Assembly: GCF_003217355.1 (NCBI RefSeq)
Contig: NZ_QJTK01000007.1
Coordinates: 62,001-126,000, forward strand
Direction: 5' to 3'
Origin: Rhodobacter viridis
GTDB taxonomy: Bacteria > Pseudomonadota > Alphaproteobacteria > Rhodobacterales > Rhodobacteraceae
Length of the DNA: 64,000 nt
Under the pieces are notes generated by a model. The model did no database searches. It was not told the DNA's origin and worked only from the letters and a program-made list of their open reading frames with translations. Position numbers and translations under genes: made by a program. Positions 10,341 to 19,666 of the stretch are shown piece by piece (position 1 is the stretch's first letter; each line of letters begins with the position of its first letter).

Positions 10341-10368
10341 AGCCCCGGTCGCGAGGCCGGGGCTTTTT
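10341..10368 (+). terminator. Intrinsic terminator after lsrF
   Basis: Stem AGCCCCGG (10341-10348) pairs with CCGGGGCT (10357-10364) and runs into TTTTT. It begins 21 bases after the lsrF stop and abuts the end of the convergent kinase gene. Confidence 0.9.
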
Positions 10369-11720
10369 CATGCCTGCTGGCGCGGGGCGAAGCGGGCTTC
10401 GGCGGCAAAACCGCGTGTCGTTCCGGGCAGGGGAGAGGTCAGCCGCAGCTCGCCCCCGGCGCGGCCAAGGATCGTCTGCACGATGGCAAGCCCCAGCCCC
10501 GCGCCGCCACGCACGGCGCCCGGGGCGCGTTCGAAGCGCGCGCCGACCCGCGCCAGAACCTCCGGTTCGACCGGATCGCAATCGTTCTCGACCCGCAGCA
10601 GACCGGGTTCGAGCCGCAGCCGCACCTCGGCCCCTTCGCAGCCGTGGCGCAGCGCGTTCGACACCAGATTGCGCACCAGAATCCCGAACAGATCCGGGTC
10701 GAGATCGGAGAGCACCGGCATCTCGGGCAGATCGAGCGTGACCCGTGCCCCGCCTGCAAGCCGCGTCGCATCCTCGACCACGATCCGCACCACCGGGCGC
10801 AGATCCTGCACCGCCTCGCGCCGCAGCCGCCCGCCCTCGGCCCGGGCAAGGCTCATCAGCCCCTCGGACAAGCGGGTGAGCCGCTTCAGCACGGTTTCGA
10901 TGTCACTGGCCCGCGCGATCACCGCAGGATCGGAGGTTTCGGCCCGCAGCCGCTGCGCTTGCGCGATGGCGCCTGCTAAGGGCGTGCGCAACTCATGCGC
11001 GGCATTGGCGGCGAAACTGCGCTCGGCCTGAAAGGCGGCATCGAGCCGGGTCAGGAGCGCATTCAGGGTTTCCGCGAGCGGCTGCACCTCGGCGGGCAGG
11101 TCGGTCGCGTCGACGGGCGTCAGATCGGCCGCCCCGCGCCGGGCAAGCCGCAGCCGGAACTGGCGCAGCGGCGCAAAGCCGTAGCGGATCAACCCGGCGA
11201 TCCCCGCAAGTGTCAGCGGCAGCACCAGCGCGATCGGCGCCAGAAGTCCCATCCGCACCTCGAAAGCCATGCGCTTGCGGTGCACCATCGGCTCTGCCAC
11301 CGAGATCCGCACCGTGCCTTGCAGGGCGTCGTCATTGTAAACCCGCAGATCATGCGTGGTGCGAAAGCCGATCCCGTCCCAGGCCGGAAACAGCCCCGGA
11401 TCTGCGCCGTGCGAGATCATCAGGATCGAGCCCTTGTCGTCGCGCACGATGTAGCTGAAGCTATCGTCATGCGGCCGCACTGCGGGCACGGTCTGGGTTC
11501 CGGTGACCAGATCGCCGCGGCTCAGGATGTCGGACACCACCAGCGGCAACACCCGATGCGCGGTTTCCTCAAGCGAGGCATCGAACATCATGTCCATCTG
11601 CAGCCGCTGCCGATAGGCGGTGAAGCTGGCCGCCGCGATCCAGAGCACGGTGACCAGAAGCCCCACCGCGATGGCCAGCCGCTTTTGCAACGAGACGGGT
11701 CGAAGGCGTGCGGTTTTCAC
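10368..11720 (-). CDS. QseC-like sensor histidine kinase
   Basis: 450-aa inner-membrane sensor kinase. Transmembrane segment near 13-35, a periplasmic loop of about 120 residues, second transmembrane segment near 158-182, HAMP, then HisKA with the phospho-acceptor His242 in NAAHELRTPLAG, and a HATPase domain with N-box NLVSNALRHG and G-box GAGLGLAIVQ. Its start overlaps the stop of the response-regulator gene by ATGA (11717-11720), so the pair is one operon. The operon is divergent from the PepSY/DUF2271/ApbE genes, which it probably controls. The signal is unknown; metal ions or redox are reasonable guesses from the neighbours. Confidence 0.93.
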   Translation of the reverse strand: MKTARLRPVSLQKRLAIAVGLLVTVLWIAAASFTAYRQRLQMDMMFDASLEETAHRVLPLVVSDILSRGDLVTGTQTVPAVRPHDDSFSYIVRDDKGSILMISHGADPGLFPAWDGIGFRTTHDLRVYNDDALQGTVRISVAEPMVHRKRMAFEVRMGLLAPIALVLPLTLAGIAGLIRYGFAPLRQFRLRLARRGAADLTPVDATDLPAEVQPLAETLNALLTRLDAAFQAERSFAANAAHELRTPLAGAIAQAQRLRAETSDPAVIARASDIETVLKRLTRLSEGLMSLARAEGGRLRREAVQDLRPVVRIVVEDATRLAGGARVTLDLPEMPVLSDLDPDLFGILVRNLVSNALRHGCEGAEVRLRLEPGLLRVENDCDPVEPEVLARVGARFERAPGAVRGGAGLGLAIVQTILGRAGGELRLTSPLPGTTRGFAAEARFAPRQQA

Positions 11721-12376
11721 GGCCGCACCAGCCGGTAGCCAAGGCCGCGTTCGGTCTCGATCACGCGCGCGCCCAGTTTCTTGCGCAGCCGCGAGATATG
11801 CACTTCCAAAGTGTTCGAGCCGATCTCGTCGTCGAAGCTGTAAAGCCGGTCCTCAAGGTCGCGCTTCGGGAAGATCTGCCCGGGGCGCGACAGCAGCAGC
11901 TCGAACAGCGCCCATTCCCGCGCCGTCAGCGCCACCGACTTGCCCGCCCGCCGCATCTCGCGCGCGGCAAGGTCGATCGTCAGCTCGCCAAGGCTCAGCA
12001 CCGGGTTCGGATTGCCCGCATAGCGCCGCGCGACCGAGCCGATCCGCGCCGTCAGTTCCGCCAGATCGAAGGGCTTGACCAGATAATCATCGGCCCCGGC
12101 ATTCAGCCCGTCGATCCGGTCCGAGACCTGATCGAGCGCCGTCAGGATGATCACCGGCGTCGCAACCCCGCGCGAGCGCAGGGTTTTCAGAAACGGAATG
12201 CCGCGGCCATCGGGCAGCATGAGGTCCAGCAGGATCAGATCGAAAGCCGCAACCGCCAGCGCCTCGGTGGCCAGGTCGAGCCGCATCACCCAATCGACGG
12301 AATGGCCGTCGGCCGCCACCTGATCGCGCACAGCCGCCCCGAGAACGGCGTCGTCTTCCACGATGAGGATGCGCAT
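11717..12376 (-). CDS. QseB-like OmpR-family response regulator
   Basis: 219-aa cytosolic transcription factor. Receiver domain at 1-115 with acidic D8/D9, phospho-acceptor D51 in LLDLMLPDG and the conserved lysine in YLVKPFD; C-terminal winged helix at about 125-218 of the OmpR/PhoB type (TAREWALFELLL, SNTLEVHISRLRKKL). It is the first gene of the two-component operon. A 130-bp gap separates it from the divergent PepSY gene, and that gap holds a strong inverted repeat that may be its operator. Confidence 0.95.
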   Translation of the reverse strand: MRILIVEDDAVLGAAVRDQVAADGHSVDWVMRLDLATEALAVAAFDLILLDLMLPDGRGIPFLKTLRSRGVATPVIILTALDQVSDRIDGLNAGADDYLVKPFDLAELTARIGSVARRYAGNPNPVLSLGELTIDLAAREMRRAGKSVALTAREWALFELLLSRPGQIFPKRDLEDRLYSFDDEIGSNTLEVHISRLRKKLGARVIETERGLGYRLVRP

Positions 12377-12425
12377 GCGGGGGCTCCTTGTTCACCCTGT
12401 CCCTATCCTGTGCCAAGCTGACGGG

Positions 12426-12458
12426 AACCTGAAGCAGGTTTTTCGAAAGCTTCAGGTT
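12426..12458. promoter_or_regulatory. Inverted repeats in the response-regulator/PepSY intergenic region
   Basis: AACCTGAAGC (12426-12435) is repeated in perfect inversion as GCTTCAGGTT (12449-12458) across 13 bases. Nested in it, AACCTG-AAG-CAGGTT (12426-12440) is a second perfect palindrome. The site sits between two divergent promoters, the expected place for an autoregulating response regulator. Operator function is inferred. Confidence 0.5.
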
Positions 12459-12506
12459 GTCGTCAGATTCGGGGGGCAAAAGGGCCTCATCCTGATGGAG
12501 GAACCC

Positions 12507-12851
12507 ATGACCGCTTCCCGCTTCCTGTCTGCTCTGGCCGCGCTTGCGGTGCTGGCACAGGCCCCCGCCGCCGCCGCGCACGACAATGACTGCACCGTGC
12601 CGATGGCCGACTGGCAACCGCGCGAAGCCGTGCAGGCGCTGGTCGAAAAGCAGGGCCTGACAGTGCGGCGCATCAAGATCGACGACGGCTGTTACGAAGT
12701 CGATGCGCTCGATACGGCCGGGGCGCGGGTGCGGATGCGGCTTGATCCCGGCTCGCTGGTGATCCTGCGCCGGGGCGGCGATGACGACGACCATCACCGC
12801 CGCGGCGAGGGCGACGACGACGAAGGCGGCTTCTTCCATCACGGCGACTGA
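12507..12851 (+). CDS. Exported PepSY-domain protein with Asp/His-rich tail
   Basis: 114-aa secreted protein. Signal peptide at about 1-23 (MTASRFLSALAALAVLAQAP then AAAAH). Residues about 33-88 form one PepSY domain (WQPREAVQALVEKQGLTVRRI, then GCYEVDALDTAGARVRMRLDP). The last 25 residues alternate Asp, His and Gly (DDDDHHRR, EGGFFHHGD) and look suited to binding metal. The ATG at 12507 is preferred over 12495 because GGAGG lies seven bases before it. It is the first gene on the side facing the two-component system; PepSY proteins often neighbour QseBC-like pairs. Confidence 0.82.
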   Translation: MTASRFLSALAALAVLAQAPAAAAHDNDCTVPMADWQPREAVQALVEKQGLTVRRIKIDDGCYEVDALDTAGARVRMRLDPGSLVILRRGGDDDDHHRRGEGDDDEGGFFHHGD

Positions 12852-12986
12852 TCCGGGCTCGCCCGGCAGGGCGGCGGTTTTTCCTTGGTCGGAGCCGCCG
12901 CCCACTTTCCCCAAATCGCATCTTCCCCCGGACCCGAAGTCCGGGACCGGTGCCCTCATGTCCGATGCAACCAAAGGAAATCACGA

Positions 12987-13397
12987 ATGAAATCCTCCCT
13001 TCCGCTGATCGCCCTTGCGGCCCTTCTGTCCTCGGCCGTGGTGGGGGCACTGTCCGCCGCACCGATCGACTCGCCGCTGTTTGCGGGCAACACGGCGGCC
13101 GCCCTCGCCACCTCCAAGGTCGCGACCCCGGCCGAAGCCGCGGCGCCGAGCGCCCAGCCGGTGCAGCTGGCCGACAATGACCACGACGATGATGACGACG
13201 ACGACGGCTTCTTCGGCTGGTTCGGCCATCACGGCAAACATGGCCATCACGGTGATGACGATGGTGATCATGGCGGCCAGAACTGCCCCGCCGGCGCGAC
13301 GAATTGCGCGAGCGCGCCGCAAGCCGCGGGCACCGTCGCCCCGCCCTCGAACGGTCTTTTCGCGCCGGGCGCGAAGCCGCAAGTGCAATCGAACTGA
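12987..13397 (+). CDS. Exported His/Asp-rich protein, function unknown
   Basis: 136 aa with a clear Sec signal peptide (about 1-24, MKSSLPLIALAALLSSAVVG then ALSA). The middle (about 65-97) is a low-complexity run of Asp, His and Gly, including seven consecutive Asp and HHGKHGHHG, followed by two Cys in NCPAGATNCAS. No known domain is recognised. The composition suggests periplasmic binding of a divalent or ferric ion. The ATG at 12987 follows AAAGGAAA. It lies between a PepSY protein and a DUF2271 protein with short spacers, so it is probably co-transcribed and part of the same redox system. Confidence 0.75.
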   Translation: MKSSLPLIALAALLSSAVVGALSAAPIDSPLFAGNTAAALATSKVATPAEAAAPSAQPVQLADNDHDDDDDDDGFFGWFGHHGKHGHHGDDDGDHGGQNCPAGATNCASAPQAAGTVAPPSNGLFAPGAKPQVQSN

Positions 13398-13407
13398 GGA
13401 CCACGCC

Positions 13408-13875
13408 ATGAAACCGCTTCAGACCGCGCTCGCGTTTTCGACCGCTCTCGTTCCGGGGATGGCGCTGGCCACTCCGGTCACCTTCACCACGCAGATGAGC
13501 AATTACGGAGGCGATGGCGCCTATCTCGCCTATTACGTCACCGATGCGAATGGTGGCTATGTCGGCAGCCTCTGGATGGCGGGCGGCAAGGCGAAATACT
13601 ACCAGCATCTGGGCGGCTGGTATGCCGCGACCGGCGGCAACAGCGCGCAGGTCGATGGCATCACCGGGGCCTCGGTCGGCGCGGGCCGGGATCTGACGAT
13701 CACGCTCGATCTGGCCGATACGCTGTTTGACCAGGGCTATGTCCTGCACGTCGACAGCGCGGTCGAGAAGATGTCGGACGTGCCGAATGACGTCACCATC
13801 CCGCTGACTTCGGACAATCTCGGCAAGCCGGTGGCGGGGAAATACTTCGTCCAGACCCTGACCATCTCCAAGTAA
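13408..13875 (+). CDS. Exported DUF2271 protein with ApbE flavinylation motif
   Basis: 155 aa: Sec signal peptide (about 1-21, ending ALA), then a compact beta-rich DUF2271 domain (VTFTTQMSNYGG through VQTLTISK). Residues 83-89 read DGITGAS (codons at 13654-13674). This fits the D-x-x-[S/T]-G-A-[S/T] motif on which ApbE attaches FMN through a phosphoester bond, making Thr86 the likely FMN site. An apbE gene and a flavoreductase gene follow directly. The protein is therefore probably a periplasmic FMN-carrying electron carrier. The flavinylation motif is seen; the electron-carrier role is inferred from the neighbours. Confidence 0.85.
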   Translation: MKPLQTALAFSTALVPGMALATPVTFTTQMSNYGGDGAYLAYYVTDANGGYVGSLWMAGGKAKYYQHLGGWYAATGGNSAQVDGITGASVGAGRDLTITLDLADTLFDQGYVLHVDSAVEKMSDVPNDVTIPLTSDNLGKPVAGKYFVQTLTISK

Positions 13876-13898
13876 CCCCGATCCTAGGAGGCACTCCC

Positions 13899-16106
13899 GT
13901 GCTGCGACATCTGCACCGTTGGCCCGGCCTTTTGGCGGCGCTTCTCGTTCTCGTGCTGGCTTTCACCGGCGCGGCGCTTTCGCTTTACCCGGCGCTGGAA
14001 CGGCTGGCGGTGCCGCAGGCCGAAAGCACGCTGACGGTCGCCGATCTGGCGGCACGGGTGGCCTCGGCCCATCCCGGTCTCGAACAGATCCGCCGCGCGC
14101 CTTCGGGGCGCGTGGTGGCCTGGTGGTTCGAGGGCGGCAGGCCCGGCGCGGCGGTGATCGACCCCGCGACCGGCGCCGATATCGGCAGCCCCGATCCGCT
14201 GCCGGGATCGCGCTTCCTGACCGATCTGCACCGCGAGTTGTTCGCCGATGACACCGGGCGACTGGTCGCGGCGGCGGGCGCTGCGCTGATGCTGGCGCTG
14301 TCGATCTCGGGGGTCTGGCTGGTGGCGCGGCGGATGGGCGGCTGGAACCGCTGGTTTGCCCGCACCCGCGGCCCCTTTGCCGGGCGGCTGCATGTGGAAC
14401 TGTCGCGGTTCGCGGTGGGCGGGCTGATCCTGTCCTCGGTCACCGCGCTCTGGATGACCGCCTCGATGTTCTCGCTGGTGCCCGATGTTGCGGCCGAGCC
14501 TGCGCCTGCGCTGGCCACCGCAAACCTGCCGCGGCTTGCCTATGACCAGATCCCGGCGCTGGCGAATACGCCCGCCGATGCGCTCAAGGAGCTTTCGCTG
14601 CCCTCAAGCGGCGATCCGACCGACACGTTCAAGCTGACGACCGCGGGCGGCGTGGCCCTGATCGATCCGGGCACCGGGGGGATGCTGTCCTCTGCCACCC
14701 CCGGCTTCTTCGAAAAGGCTACGGAAATCATGATCATGCTGCACACGGGGCAGGGGGCGCCGGTGCTGGGTCTGCTTCTGGGCCTGATGGCGCTTTCGGT
14801 GCCCGCGCTCGCCCTGACCGGGGCGCAACAATGGCTGGCCGGTCTGCGCTCGACCCGTCGCATCCGCCGCAATGCCCGGGCCGATGCCGCGGAAACCGTG
14901 GTGCTTGTGGCCTCTGAGGGCGGCACGACCTGGGGCTTTGCCCGCACGCTTCACGATGGCCTGACCGCCGCCGGGCAAAAGGTGCACACCGGGCCGCTCG
15001 CCACTTTCGACCCCGCCCGGTATGCCCATGCCCGCCGCTTCCTGATCCTCGCCGCCACCTATGGCGAGGGCGAGGCGCCCACCGCCGCCAAGGGCGTGCT
15101 GGAGCGCATCGCGGCGCTGAAATCCGCCCCGACTGCGCCCGTGGCCGTGCTCGGCTTTGGCGACCGCTCCTTCCCGCATTTCTGCGCCTTTGCCGAAAGC
15201 CTGCGTTCTGCGGCGGCGCAGATCGGCTGGGCAGAACTGCTGCCGATGGCCACGGTCGACCGGCAATCGCCGCAGGATTTCGCCCGCTGGAGCCGCGATC
15301 TGGGCGCCGTCCTGACCCTGCCGCTCGATCTGACGCATCTGCCCGAGCGGCCGAAGACCAGTACCCTCACCCTGATCTCGCGGCGCGATTATGGTGCCGA
15401 GGTGCAGGCGCCGACCTCGATCCTGCGCTTTGCGGTGCCGCAGCCGACGCTGTGGCAGCGGCTGACCGGGCAGGGGCTGGCGCGGTTCGAAGCGGGCGAT
15501 CTGATCGGCGTGCTGCCGAAGGGCTCCGACCTGCCGCGGTTCTATTCGCTGGCTTCGTCGGCGCAGGACGGCTTCCTTGAAATCTGCGTGCGCCGTCATC
15601 CGGGCGGGCTCTGCTCGGGGCAGCTGACCGACCTGCGTCCCGGCGAGACGATCGAGGGCTTCGTGCGCCTCAACCCCGCCTTCCGGCCGCACAAGGGCCG
15701 CAAGCCGGTGATCCTGATCGGGGCGGGTACGGGCGTCGGGCCGCTGGCGGGCTTCCTGCGCGCCAACCGTCGCCACCGGCCGATGCACCTCTACTTTGGC
15801 GCCCGCGCGCCGCAAAGCGACCTGCTTTACGATGCCGAGTTGCGCGACTGGCAGGCCGAGGGGCAGCTTGCGAAACTGACGACCGCCTATTCGCGTCACG
15901 GTCAGAAAACCTATGTGCAGGATGCCCTGCGCGCTGACGCGGCCGAACTGGCGCGGCTGATCGGGTCGGGGGCGCAGATCATGGTCTGCGGCGGGCGCGA
16001 GATGGCCGCCTCGGTCCGCGACGCGCTGGCCGAGATCCTTGCCACAATCGGGCAGACGCCCGCCACGCTGAAAGCCGAGGGACGCTATGCCGAAGATGTC
16101 TACTGA
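13899..16106 (+). CDS. PepSY-TM membrane flavoreductase (PepSY / flavodoxin / FAD-NAD(P)H reductase)
   Basis: 735-aa fusion. Residues 1-325 are a PepSY-associated membrane region with four hydrophobic segments (about 8-28, 125-145, 165-190, 285-310) and His residues near their ends (LHRWPG, LHRELF, MLHTGQG) that could bind heme. Residues about 330-475 are a flavodoxin domain, and about 483-735 a CysJ-like ferredoxin reductase with FAD motif RFYSLASS (546) and nucleotide motif GAGTGVGPLAGF (near 607). It should pass electrons from NAD(P)H in the cytosol across the inner membrane. The GTG start at 13899 is supported by TAGGAGG just upstream. It overlaps apbE by 20 bases. Related PepSY-TM proteins reduce ferric siderophores or other periplasmic acceptors. 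Confidence 0.88.
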   Translation: MLRHLHRWPGLLAALLVLVLAFTGAALSLYPALERLAVPQAESTLTVADLAARVASAHPGLEQIRRAPSGRVVAWWFEGGRPGAAVIDPATGADIGSPDPLPGSRFLTDLHRELFADDTGRLVAAAGAALMLALSISGVWLVARRMGGWNRWFARTRGPFAGRLHVELSRFAVGGLILSSVTALWMTASMFSLVPDVAAEPAPALATANLPRLAYDQIPALANTPADALKELSLPSSGDPTDTFKLTTAGGVALIDPGTGGMLSSATPGFFEKATEIMIMLHTGQGAPVLGLLLGLMALSVPALALTGAQQWLAGLRSTRRIRRNARADAAETVVLVASEGGTTWGFARTLHDGLTAAGQKVHTGPLATFDPARYAHARRFLILAATYGEGEAPTAAKGVLERIAALKSAPTAPVAVLGFGDRSFPHFCAFAESLRSAAAQIGWAELLPMATVDRQSPQDFARWSRDLGAVLTLPLDLTHLPERPKTSTLTLISRRDYGAEVQAPTSILRFAVPQPTLWQRLTGQGLARFEAGDLIGVLPKGSDLPRFYSLASSAQDGFLEICVRRHPGGLCSGQLTDLRPGETIEGFVRLNPAFRPHKGRKPVILIGAGTGVGPLAGFLRANRRHRPMHLYFGARAPQSDLLYDAELRDWQAEGQLAKLTTAYSRHGQKTYVQDALRADAAELARLIGSGAQIMVCGGREMAASVRDALAEILATIGQTPATLKAEGRYAEDVY

Positions 16107-17022
16107 GACCGCCCGTCAGGCGTTGAACGGGGCCACGATGGGCACGCGCTGGGCGCTGACGCTGCATGCGGACCCGGATTTCGACACCGCCGCCCTGCGC
16201 GCCGCCTGTCAGGCCGAGGTCGACCGGATCGACGCGCAGATGTCGACCTGGAGGCCCGACAGTGACCTGATGCGCTTCAATGCGGCGCCGCTCGGGGTCT
16301 GGCACGACCTTCCCGCGCCGCTGATGGAGGTGCTGACCGAGGCGCTTTTCATCGGCCGCGAAAGCGGCGGCGCCTTCGAGATCGCGATGGGTGATGCCGT
16401 CCGTGCCTGGGGCTTTGGCCCGGTGCCCGCCGATGAAGCCGCGATCCGCGCCGCGATGGCGAAACCGCGCCGCCCGAGTTTCGAGACGCTGGAACTGGAC
16501 CCGGCGCGGGGCCGCGCCCGCAAGCACGCCGAGATGAGCCTTGATTTGTGCGGCATCGCCAAGGGTTACGGCAGCGACCGGCTGATCGCGGCGGCGCAGG
16601 CGGCGGGGATCACCTGTGCGCTGGCCTCGATCGACGGCGAGCTGCGCGCCATCGGCAAGCCGCCGGGGGACCGCGGCTGGGCCGTTGCGCTGGAGCGGCC
16701 CGATTTCGGTCATCGCGCCATCCATTCGATGTTCGAGCTGAACGACATCGCCATCGCCACCTCGGGCGATTACCGGCATTGGGTCCGCGTCGGTGACCGC
16801 CGTCTCGCCCATACGATGGACCCGGCCCGGGGCGCGCCGCTGATCGGCGGCCCGGCCTCGGTCACGGTTCTGGCCGCCAGCTGCATCCGCGCCGATGCGC
16901 TTGCCAGTGCCTGCATGGTGCTGGGCGCAAGCCGCGGCAAGGCGCTTGCGGCCCGACTTGGCGCCGAGGTGATCTGCCTGACCGAAGCCGATCGCAGCGC
17001 CGCCGCGCAGAAGGCTTCCTGA
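16087..17022 (+). CDS. apbE: FAD:protein FMN transferase ApbE
   Basis: 311 aa. Moves FMN from FAD onto Thr/Ser of target proteins. Family signatures are present: TMGTRWALT at the N-terminus, GGAFEIAMGDAVRAWGFGP, DLCGIAKGYGSDR, ATSGDYRHW and HTMDPARGAP. The DUF2271 protein three genes away carries a matching acceptor motif. There is no signal peptide: only about 14 residues precede the conserved TMGT motif, and a stop codon (16069-16071) lies in frame six codons upstream of the ATG, so no longer start is possible. Most ApbE proteins are exported lipoproteins, so a cytosolic form is unusual. It overlaps the flavoreductase gene. Confidence 0.92.
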   Translation: MPKMSTETARQALNGATMGTRWALTLHADPDFDTAALRAACQAEVDRIDAQMSTWRPDSDLMRFNAAPLGVWHDLPAPLMEVLTEALFIGRESGGAFEIAMGDAVRAWGFGPVPADEAAIRAAMAKPRRPSFETLELDPARGRARKHAEMSLDLCGIAKGYGSDRLIAAAQAAGITCALASIDGELRAIGKPPGDRGWAVALERPDFGHRAIHSMFELNDIAIATSGDYRHWVRVGDRRLAHTMDPARGAPLIGGPASVTVLAASCIRADALASACMVLGASRGKALAARLGAEVICLTEADRSAAAQKAS

Positions 17023-17149: not shown

Positions 17150-19666
17150 TTGGCCGTTCGCAACCCCCGTTCCGAGCCGGTATCGGGCGTTCTGGCGCTC
17201 GAATGCGCCGCCGCGATGCATTGGCGCATTCAGGCCGGTCCGGTTGGGCCGCAGGTTGTGCTTGGTCTGGGCGTGGGCGAGACGCCCCTTGATCTTGAAG
17301 CCTTCTCCGAGCTGTTCCACCCAGATGATCGCGCAGATCTGCGCCTGTTCCTGACCGCGGGCGCCGATGTCTCGCAGCTGGGTCTTGATGTGTCGAACCG
17401 CTCGCCGCTGCGCGGCGCGCTGTTCCGGCTGCGCTGGGGCGGCGTGGGCGAGGATTACATCCTGACCTGCTTCCAATCGGCGGAGGAGGTGGGCGAACCT
17501 GTGCCGCGCACGGTACCCGGGCGGATGTTCCGTCTGGACGCGGCGCTGCATGTCGTGCGCGGCACGCTGGAAAGCGCGGGGATGACGCCGACCTCATGCT
17601 GGGATGTCGATCTGCGCAGCGGCGCGCTGAGTGTGGCCGCGTCCTGGAAGGACCGGCTGGGCTACGGGCCGACTGATCTCGAGCCCTTCACGCATGACGA
17701 CTGGGCGCGGATGAGCCACCCCGAGGATGTCGCGGGCTTCGAGGCTCCCGAGATGAAGGCGCGGCTGAACCGGGGCGAACTCGTGCAATATCTGTCGCGC
17801 TCGCGGCACCGGGCGGGGCACTGGGTCACCTTCCTGTCCTTCTGCCGCGTCGTGCGCTGGGACGCCGCGGGCGAGATGTGCTTCATGATGGGCTGCGATC
17901 TCGACATGACCGCGGTCTCGACGCTCGAGGGCGCGCTGGCACGCGAACGCGACCGGCTGACGACGATCCTTGATGCGATGCCGTATGGCAAGATCGTGCT
18001 TGATGCGCATGATTGTGTGAGCTTCGCCAACCCCGAGGCTTGCTCTCTGATCGGCATCGGTCTGGCCGAGATCACCGGGCGGTCGTTTGCGGATGTTCTG
18101 TCGCTCGAGGAAGGCCGCGCCGATCTCTTCTCGGCGATCGAGGAGGGCGAGGCGAGCCAGCCGGTGCGGATCAGCCTGCGCCGGAGCGGGCGGCTGCGGG
18201 TGCTGCAGGTGGATCTGGTGCCCTTGCCGTCTCAGATCGGGGACGGGCGGTTGCTGCTGTCATTGTCGGACATCACCGGGCTGCACGAGCTGCGCCAGCA
18301 ACTCGAACAGTCGATCGAGAATGCCCGGTTCATCGCCACCCACGATCTGATGACCGGCCTGCCCGACCGCTATCTCATGATGCGGCTTCTGGGCGAGAAA
18401 CTGACCGAGCTTGCCCGCGAGGGGCGGCCGATGGCGGTCTTGTGCATCGACTTCGACAATTTCCGCCTGATCAATGACACGCTGGGCCATGAGACGGCGG
18501 ATCAGCTGATCAAATCGGCGGCGAAGCGGCTGGAACAGGGCCTGCCCGAGGGGGCGATCCTGGCCCGCACCGGCGAGGGCGATTTCGTCGTTCTGCTGCC
18601 GGGTGCCGATGCGCTTGCAGCCGAGTCGCGCAGCTGGGAAATCGTGCGCGCCTTCGCCCGGCCGATGCGTCTGCAACGGCGGCAATGCTTCCTGACCGTC
18701 TCGATCGGGGTCGCGCTGACTCTGGCGCCCGGCAGCTCTGCCGAGGCGCTTTTGCGCGCGGCCGACATGGCGATGCATCAGTCGAAAGCGCGCGGGCGCA
18801 ACACCGTGACGGTGTTCTCGCCCGAGATTGGCGCGCAGTTCGAGCGGCGCACGGCGGTGGCGCAGGCGCTGCATCGCGCGCTCGAAGAGCGCAGCTTCGA
18901 GCTGCATCTGCAGCCGAAATTCGCCATCGAACAAGAGGTCCGGCTGATCGGCGCCGAGGCGTTGCTGCGTCTGACCGATGCCGAGCTGGGGCCGATCTCG
19001 CCCGCTGAATTCATCCCGGTGGCCGAGATCGACGGGCTGGTCGCGGCGATCGATCTGGAGGTGATGCGGCTTGCGGGCGAGATGCTGAGGACCTGGGCCG
19101 CGCAAGGGATCTGCCTGCCGCTCGCGGTGAACATCAATGCGACGACGCTCGACGAGCCGGGCCATGCCGATCTTGCCGAGCGGCTGATGCGCGTGGGTCT
19201 TGACCCCGATCAGGTGACGATCGAGCTGACCGAGACCGGCCTTGCCGCGCCGGGACCGCGCCAGCAGCGCAACCTCGAACGGCTGCGCGATGCGGGCTAC
19301 AAGATTGCGATCGACGATTTCGGCACCGGGCAATCGGCGCTCGGTGTGCTGCAAAGCCTGCCGGTGGCCGAGATCAAGATCGACCGCTCGTTTGTGCGCG
19401 GTCTTGACGGCCCCGAACCGGCGCGCGCACGCGCGTTGGTGCGCGCGATCCTCGCGATGGCTGGCGCGCTCGATCTGCGCGCCATCGCCGAGGGGGTCGA
19501 GACCGAGGCGCAATACCGGGTTCTGAAGGAAGAGGGCTGCCCGGCGATGCAGGGGTTCCTGCTGGGGCGGCCCTTGTCATTGCGCAGTTTCGAGGCGCGT
19601 TATCTTGCCGGAATGCAGCCGCTGCGCGCGGTCGCCACTGCCGGCGTCGGAGGATCAGGCGCATGA
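17150..19666 (+). CDS. PAS-PAS-GGDEF-EAL c-di-GMP signalling protein
   Basis: 838-aa protein without obvious membrane segments. An N-terminal region (1-135) of unclear fold is followed by a PAS_3-type domain (about 140-265), a second PAS (about 270-380), GGDEF (about 395-560) and EAL (about 575-825). The GGDEF signature is degenerate, GEGDF at 475-479, so cyclase activity is doubtful. The EAL domain keeps its signatures (AEALLR, NINATTL, ELTETG, IDDFGTGQSAL), so c-di-GMP phosphodiesterase activity is likely. The TTG start at 17150 follows GGAGACAG. The stop overlaps the ATG of a SorC-family regulator (ATGA at 19663-19666), implying coupled expression. Confidence 0.9.
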   Translation: MAVRNPRSEPVSGVLALECAAAMHWRIQAGPVGPQVVLGLGVGETPLDLEAFSELFHPDDRADLRLFLTAGADVSQLGLDVSNRSPLRGALFRLRWGGVGEDYILTCFQSAEEVGEPVPRTVPGRMFRLDAALHVVRGTLESAGMTPTSCWDVDLRSGALSVAASWKDRLGYGPTDLEPFTHDDWARMSHPEDVAGFEAPEMKARLNRGELVQYLSRSRHRAGHWVTFLSFCRVVRWDAAGEMCFMMGCDLDMTAVSTLEGALARERDRLTTILDAMPYGKIVLDAHDCVSFANPEACSLIGIGLAEITGRSFADVLSLEEGRADLFSAIEEGEASQPVRISLRRSGRLRVLQVDLVPLPSQIGDGRLLLSLSDITGLHELRQQLEQSIENARFIATHDLMTGLPDRYLMMRLLGEKLTELAREGRPMAVLCIDFDNFRLINDTLGHETADQLIKSAAKRLEQGLPEGAILARTGEGDFVVLLPGADALAAESRSWEIVRAFARPMRLQRRQCFLTVSIGVALTLAPGSSAEALLRAADMAMHQSKARGRNTVTVFSPEIGAQFERRTAVAQALHRALEERSFELHLQPKFAIEQEVRLIGAEALLRLTDAELGPISPAEFIPVAEIDGLVAAIDLEVMRLAGEMLRTWAAQGICLPLAVNINATTLDEPGHADLAERLMRVGLDPDQVTIELTETGLAAPGPRQQRNLERLRDAGYKIAIDDFGTGQSALGVLQSLPVAEIKIDRSFVRGLDGPEPARARALVRAILAMAGALDLRAIAEGVETEAQYRVLKEEGCPAMQGFLLGRPLSLRSFEARYLAGMQPLRAVATAGVGGSGA

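Follow-up and report, generated by a model that had tools for sequence, protein, structure and literature searches.

Gene arrangement and spread of the locus

A gene cluster predicted to carry electrons across the cytoplasmic membrane was examined in a 64,000-nucleotide stretch of the genome of Rhodobacter viridis (Rhodobacteraceae; contig NZ_QJTK01000007.1, positions 62,001 to 126,000), hereafter the window. Five genes on the forward strand encode a PepSY_2 protein, an acidic protein, a DUF2271 protein, a PepSY_TM/flavodoxin/reductase fusion and ApbE (FAD:protein FMN transferase), and two genes for a two-component system (TCS) are transcribed in the opposite direction (Table 1). The genes, domains and gene order proposed in a first-pass annotation were all found, with Pfam matches for six of the seven proteins; the divergent TCS was present on the opposite strand as described, but just outside the segment 12377-17022 in which that annotation had placed the locus. 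Start codons of the seven genes were picked by eye. The whole genome carries one gene for DUF2271 and four for ApbE.

Table 1. Features of the TCS-linked DUF2271 locus, in window coordinates
Feature	Position	Strand	Matches and characteristics
Sensor histidine kinase	10368-11720	-	HisKA 3.2e-9 and HATPase_c 5e-13 (Pfam)
OmpR-type response regulator	11717-12376	-	Response_reg 1.9e-24 and Trans_reg_C 9.1e-21 (Pfam)
Predicted response-regulator box, oriented toward the TCS genes	12414-12436	-	Exact core 12418-12434
Predicted response-regulator box, oriented toward the operon	12448-12470	+	Exact core 12450-12466
PepSY_2 protein	12507-12851	+	PepSY_2 E 2.3e-23; export-signal-like N-terminus (by eye), acidic/His-rich tail
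Acidic (Asp/His-rich) protein	12987-13397	+	Export-signal-like N-terminus (by eye); conserved C-terminal tail AAGTVAPPSNGLFAPGAKPQVQSN
DUF2271 protein	13408-13875	+	DUF2271 E 5.2e-33; Sec-type signal peptide; DGITGAS with Thr86
PepSY_TM/flavodoxin/FNR fusion	13899-16106	+	PepSY_TM (PF03929) 1.3e-34, Flavodoxin_1 5.1e-13, FAD_binding_6 3.8e-4, NAD_binding_1 3.7e-14
ApbE (FAD:protein FMN transferase), no signal peptide	16087-17022	+	ApbE E 7.8e-73; start inside the last codons of the fusion

A DUF2271 match was detected in 41 of 198 genomes drawn from the family, 40 of them above the Pfam cut-off. For comparison we collected 195 loci, the window included. The family set comprised wide stretches around 44 DUF2271 matches outside the window (L035-L078), and the named set the best 80 of 557 confirmed loci of a genome scan (L079-L158), some of which are from the same organisms as family loci. 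The phylum-wide set comprised 70 of 79 above-cut-off matches (L159-L228), after omission of five already in the sample and four second copies; 12 below-cut-off matches of this draw were left out. Loci with DUF2271 and a full-length fusion (more than 400 bits to its own profile) were designated type B. This type accounted for 134 of the 195 loci, namely the window and 42 of 44 family, 79 of 80 named and 12 of 70 phylum-wide loci, and provided 121 unique DUF2271, 117 unique ApbE and 127 unique fusion sequences. ApbE was encoded inside the stretch in 126 of these 134 loci. Since 121 of the 134 also carried a divergent TCS within 4.5 kb, the gene order is more than chance. Named type-B members are mostly from what we take to be Rhodobacterales and Hyphomicrobiales, and five type-B loci (L217-L219, L221, L222) belong to other classes of the phylum. 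The DUF2271-fusion-ApbE locus is present twice in each of three genomes (G132, G138, G182), and it also occurs in Sinirhodobacter ferrireducens (L082), which is linked to iron reduction by species name only.

Rather than founding a class of its own, the locus belongs to the published PepSY-like/DUF2271 flavinylation class (Méheust 2021; PMC8238504), as a subtype linked to a TCS. The published clusters and the window have in common a PepSY-like membrane protein, an NAD-binding domain (in a subset), a DUF2271 protein with [S/T]GA[S/T] and ApbE, and the DUF2271 protein of the window carries both the [ST]GA[ST] motif and the signal peptide required for the class. Features of the window that do not come up in the available parts of that paper are the PepSY_2 protein, the acidic protein with its tail, a leaderless ApbE, and a divergent TCS whose promoter box is conserved. 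DUF4198, a frequent but not defining partner in the class, was not matched by any of the seven window-locus proteins in Pfam. DUF2271, ApbE and a sulfite-reductase-like flavoprotein are also combined in one operon of Caulobacter (CC_3059-3063 or CCNA_03155-03159), which is repressed by Fur and supports fitness under EDTA (PMC3751524, PMC11870441). This operon differs from the window locus in its DUF4198 gene, a gene annotated as transporter and the control by Fur, and no TCS is named for it in the available excerpts.

Membrane reductase and DUF2271 protein

The PepSY_TM part of the fusion matched the structure of FoxB of Pseudomonas aeruginosa (7abw, E 3.5e-7), including its heme-ligand histidines. 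His6, His111 and His282 were aligned with FoxB histidines in the printed alignment; His165, outside this alignment, was placed by analogy next to the second L-H-R repeat of FoxB. All four histidines were found to be invariant in 127 aligned fusions (of 134, seven being excluded by length), and from this sequence comparison they are likely to be heme ligands. HiuB and VciB are grouped with FoxB as related PepSY_TM proteins, by published description only.

For the diflavin part, the best match in the profile search was NADPH-sulfite reductase flavoprotein (6efv, 1.3e-53), and cytochrome P450 reductase was also matched. A fold model of the fusion (pLDDT 85.7, pTM 0.60) gave nitric oxide synthase, CYP102A1 and the sulfite and P450 reductases as the best matches. 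The window reductase shares with NADPH-sulfite reductase flavoprotein and P450 reductase the flavodoxin and FAD/NADPH domains, the Ser-Arg pair and a C-terminal aromatic residue, but, unlike them, is joined to a membrane domain in which four histidines are conserved. The Ser-Arg pair, a mark of NADPH use in this reductase family, is conserved across the fusions (residues 665-666); Lys of the NADPH motif is not conserved in the fusion consensus. A path from the diflavin domain through two b-type hemes to a flavinylated periplasmic DUF2271 protein is supported by homology and conservation. The donor, given as NAD(P)H in the first-pass annotation, is better called NADPH, since the Ser-Arg pair is conserved and NADPH enzymes head the matches to solved structures. 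Unlike FoxB, of which the electron donor is described as unknown (PMC13038864), the window protein has the diflavin reductase in the same chain as PepSY_TM, and the fused domain would supply a donor of just this kind.

Thr86 is the motif threonine of the window DUF2271 protein, and its conservation next to apbE was one of the points on which the proposed flavinylation had been staked. Among 121 unique DUF2271 sequences, this position was Thr in 115 and Ser in 6, and the proposal is not refuted on this count. As to the motif D-x-x-[S/T]-G-A-[S/T], the part [ST]G[AG]S was kept in all 121, whereas the leading Asp turned out to be variable (N 68, D 33, S 13, A 4, H 2, R 1). Hydropathy of the signal region reached 1.8 in 126 of 134 type-B DUF2271 proteins; Tat export was rejected, the twin-arginine pattern being found in 0 of 134. 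At E 0.001, nothing in PDB matched the DUF2271 model (pLDDT 87.3). Flavinylation at the same motif has been shown in E. coli for a DUF2271 protein and the cognate ApbE of another species (PMC8238504). By sequence homology, there is good support for the export of electrons to a flavinylated DUF2271 protein.

Leaderless ApbE and the place of FMN attachment

In the first-pass annotation, ApbE simply acted on the exported DUF2271 protein. This is not supported, because the locus ApbE has no leader. The window ApbE has just 14 residues before the G-x-x-M-G-T motif, whereas the other three ApbEs of the genome carry hydrophobic, Sec- or Tat-like leaders. Even for the longest possible N-terminus, mean hydropathy over ten residues reached 1.5 in none of 126 type-B loci, and where more than 30 residues precede the motif (seven loci) they add no hydrophobic stretch. 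Among 115 unique locus ApbEs, lipobox, Tat and hydropathy features were counted in 0, 2 and 0, respectively, the two Tat matches looking like chance; for 38 control ApbEs from elsewhere the numbers were 25, 13 and 33, and 36 of the 38 had at least one leader feature. The controls were hand-picked, consisting of three ApbEs of the same genome, 20 mostly high-scoring ones and 15 others. Two controls missed by the leader rule were counted as misses (L247, with a frame starting inside the apparent leader; L248, with a misplaced anchor).

A likely cause of the missing leader is gene overlap, since the start codon of ApbE sits within the C-terminal codons of the reductase (RYAEDVY and stop in the window). 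This C-terminus, RYVEDVY or RYAEDVY, was found in 86 of 126 unique fusions; of 118 unique loci, 96 share an overlap of precisely 20 nt. A misannotated ApbE start was rejected on three grounds: the window has no upstream in-frame ATG, GTG or TTG before a stop, the 20-nt overlap is conserved, and the longer N-termini of the seven loci contain no additional hydrophobic stretch. Two of three ApbE motif patterns were present in 116 of 117 unique ApbEs, and the third, probably too strict, in 95 of 117.

Leader-bearing ApbE was found in none of 14 genomes. The sole ApbE is at the DUF2271 locus in G003, G064, G095, G103, G154, G170, G177, G457, G287 and G569; both ApbEs are at such a locus in G132, G138 and G182; and G028 (86% complete) has a single cut ApbE, again at the DUF2271 locus. 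All 17 ApbEs of these genomes were leaderless by the same rule, and an ApbE search at E up to 1 added two weak matches (0.36, 0.61). In these genomes, therefore, the enzyme has no leader although its substrate carries an export signal, which makes the place of FMN attachment directly testable. Leaderless ApbEs of DUF2271 clusters are not mentioned in the available parts of PMC8238504 and PMC11334425, and genes without signal peptide were dropped in one step of the former. In that paper, DUF2271 and ApbE of A. ursilacus, both signal-peptide-truncated, were successfully co-expressed in E. coli; cytosolic FMN attachment is therefore chemically possible. The cytosolic ApbE of Klebsiella pneumoniae likewise has no signal peptide, but its substrate is cytosolic (PMC12052999), unlike the Sec-signal-bearing DUF2271 protein here.

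From the missing leader and the 14 genomes without any other kind of ApbE, we infer that flavinylation of DUF2271 by this ApbE takes place in the cytoplasm, either ahead of export or in the course of it. Taken with the reductase chain, this leads to the reading that we favor, with a probability of roughly 0.55: TCS-controlled export of electrons from NADPH through periplasmic FMN-DUF2271 to a metal, with FMN attached by the locus ApbE before or during export. A dedicated TCS would control an inducible transmembrane electron-transfer module, in which electrons may pass from cytosolic NADPH through FAD and the FMN of the flavodoxin domain to two b-type hemes in PepSY_TM. From the hemes they would reach FMN bound via phosphate to Thr86 of periplasmic DUF2271, the product of the operon's own ApbE, and then be passed to an acceptor in the periplasm. 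A metal ion is the most likely acceptor, with ferric iron as the first choice, and the PepSY_2 and acidic tail proteins may bind or present it. If the leaderless ApbE does load the exported DUF2271 protein, the site of FMN attachment in a large electron-transfer class differs from that assumed, and Sec must carry, or couple to, a flavinylated protein. Cytoplasmic loading before translocation would also break the working rule by which ApbE is found in the same compartment as its substrate. What deserves specialist attention in this locus is that ApbE looks cytosolic while the substrate is exported.

Flavinylation could instead take place in the periplasm, by exported ApbEs or by the leaderless ApbE leaving through piggy-back or non-classical export, a possibility to which we give about one chance in three. 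Most characterised ApbEs are secreted, and the cytosolic ones are named with cytosolic substrates (PMC12052999); the window genome itself has the three leader-bearing ApbEs. Furthermore, in 15 genomes without ApbE in the DUF2271 stretch by profile search, ApbE from elsewhere carried a leader in all 15, and DUF2271 seems to be served either way, by leaderless or leader-bearing ApbE. The sister type (L159-L215), in which all ten tested proteins adjoining ApbE were DUF4198, as in Caulobacter, provides further cases. Of its 37 unique ApbEs, 28 were without leader feature and nine with: L177 (DUF4198-type) has a plain lipoprotein ApbE, while in L211, L213 and L215 ApbE and DUF2271 form one chain with a signal-like N-terminus, so that enzyme and substrate would be exported together. 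The remaining five, doubtful as leader calls, were due to open frames that run too long or to a short, conserved segment resembling R-V-L-I-P. Periplasmic flavinylation is opposed by the 14 genomes without leader-bearing ApbE and by the lack of any hydrophobic or lipobox feature in the 115 unique locus ApbEs. As to the short segment, several ApbEs of L159, L160, L181, L202 and L210 start with an R-[VI]-L-[IV]-P-like form of it.

Accessory proteins, promoter box and electron acceptor

Accessory proteins were surveyed in 108 non-redundant TCS-linked loci. PepSY_2 was found in 95, an Asp/Glu run of at least 5 in 81 (the longest 24) and the conserved tail in 45. Apart from the tail, the acidic proteins are the most variable part of the locus. 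Among 20 hand-chosen examples, the tail core A-G-T-x-A-P-P-x-N-G-L-F was invariant except at x. When 149 genomes were searched for the tail, 21 of them yielded a total of 24 matches (weakest E 0.006), of which 23 lie at the DUF2271 locus by coordinates; the other (G095:C175) is on a separate contig in a genome whose DUF2271 locus is close to a contig end. We tentatively suggest, at somewhat less than even odds, that FMN is added to DUF2271 in the cytoplasm before Sec export and that the tail serves as a docking handle for the flavoprotein or reductase. Assignment of the acidic protein to a known family was rejected, with no match above the curated cut-off in Pfam and none in NCBIfam at 0.01; for the PepSY_2 protein, the best match to solved structures had an E of only 0.65.

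Between regulator and DUF2271, a cytochrome b561 gene was found in 29 of the 108 loci, a ferric-reductase-like gene in 11 and either in 40; one example each was matched by Pfam to Ni_hydr_CYTB (3.1e-31) and Ferric_reduct (2.1e-13). The window locus has neither. In L052, L053, L055 and L058, the ferric-reductase-like membrane protein follows PepSY_2 and a tail-bearing PepSY_2 protein replaces the acidic protein; in L052 and L053 the tail sits on this second PepSY_2 protein.

Upstream of the response regulator, TCAG-N7-TCAG was detected in 86 of 96 non-redundant promoter regions, while the commonest pair of the same design reached 7 of 96 after one shuffle per region. The box was present on either strand in 91 of the 96 regions, and in the window there are two in opposite orientations. 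Only two exact copies of CTTCAGN6GTCAG exist in the 3.87 Mb genome, both of them at this locus, and the TCS therefore looks local and dedicated as judged from the sequence. A wider regulon was sought with one mismatch allowed; the 54 matches obtained compare with 38 for a reversed control pattern, and therefore no other target can be named. The conserved box offers a handle on the signal of the TCS. The best curated models were PmrA and QseB for the response regulator (PmrA, 209.5 of 330 bits) and QseC for the kinase (194.1 of 475 bits), all below cut-off, as was PmrB; heavy-metal models were also matched below cut-off. In searches of one literature collection, papers with FeuN and FeuQ were found, but PepSY occurred in none of these, and no paper combined BqsRS with PepSY.

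As to the metal, we can only guess, with iron given the most weight. Instead of iron, the module may reduce copper or another oxidant (peroxide or oxidised protein), or it may serve envelope stress sensed via a PmrAB/QseBC-like system; we give this about one chance in three. The PepSY_TM protein CrpH also serves copper enzymes (PMC13038864), and the TCS matches just described point in the same direction. The choice of iron is favored by the Fur-repressed sister operons, which support fitness under chelation, and by other PepSY_TM proteins, which are described as ferrisiderophore reductases.

Several observations weigh against metal-directed electron export with FMN attached by a leaderless ApbE. 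Thirteen of the 14 leaderless-only genomes are multi-contig drafts, four of them less than 99% complete, and G003 alone is a single contig. The leader calls were made by hydropathy and motif rules, not by a trained predictor. The ApbE of A. ursilacus is called signal-peptide-truncated, which implies a leader there and speaks against a general rule, and the ApbE of L177 is a plain lipoprotein. Within AD-x-x-[AS]-[ST], the window ApbE deviates, with Ser at a position that is Thr in 110 of 117 unique ApbEs. Eight of the 134 type-B loci are without ApbE in the stretch and 13 without TCS, some of them at contig ends. As judged from the counts given above, neither the tail nor the acidic run is universal, and the iron link comes from the sister type with DUF4198 and Fur, which lacks the TCS.

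It is very improbable that the leaderless ApbE modifies another, cytosolic protein, as the Klebsiella enzyme modifies soluble fumarate reductase (PMC12052999), and that DUF2271 works without covalent flavin: ApbE is encoded beside DUF2271 in 126 of 134 loci, the motif is kept in all 121 unique DUF2271 sequences, and in the 14 leaderless-only genomes, searched for FMN_bind and NqrB/RnfD but not for DUF3570 or fumarate-reductase-type substrates, FMN_bind was absent from 13 (G028 has one) and NqrB/RnfD from all 14.

Downstream of the locus, the gene at 17150-19666 was read by eye as encoding a GGDEF/EAL signalling protein.

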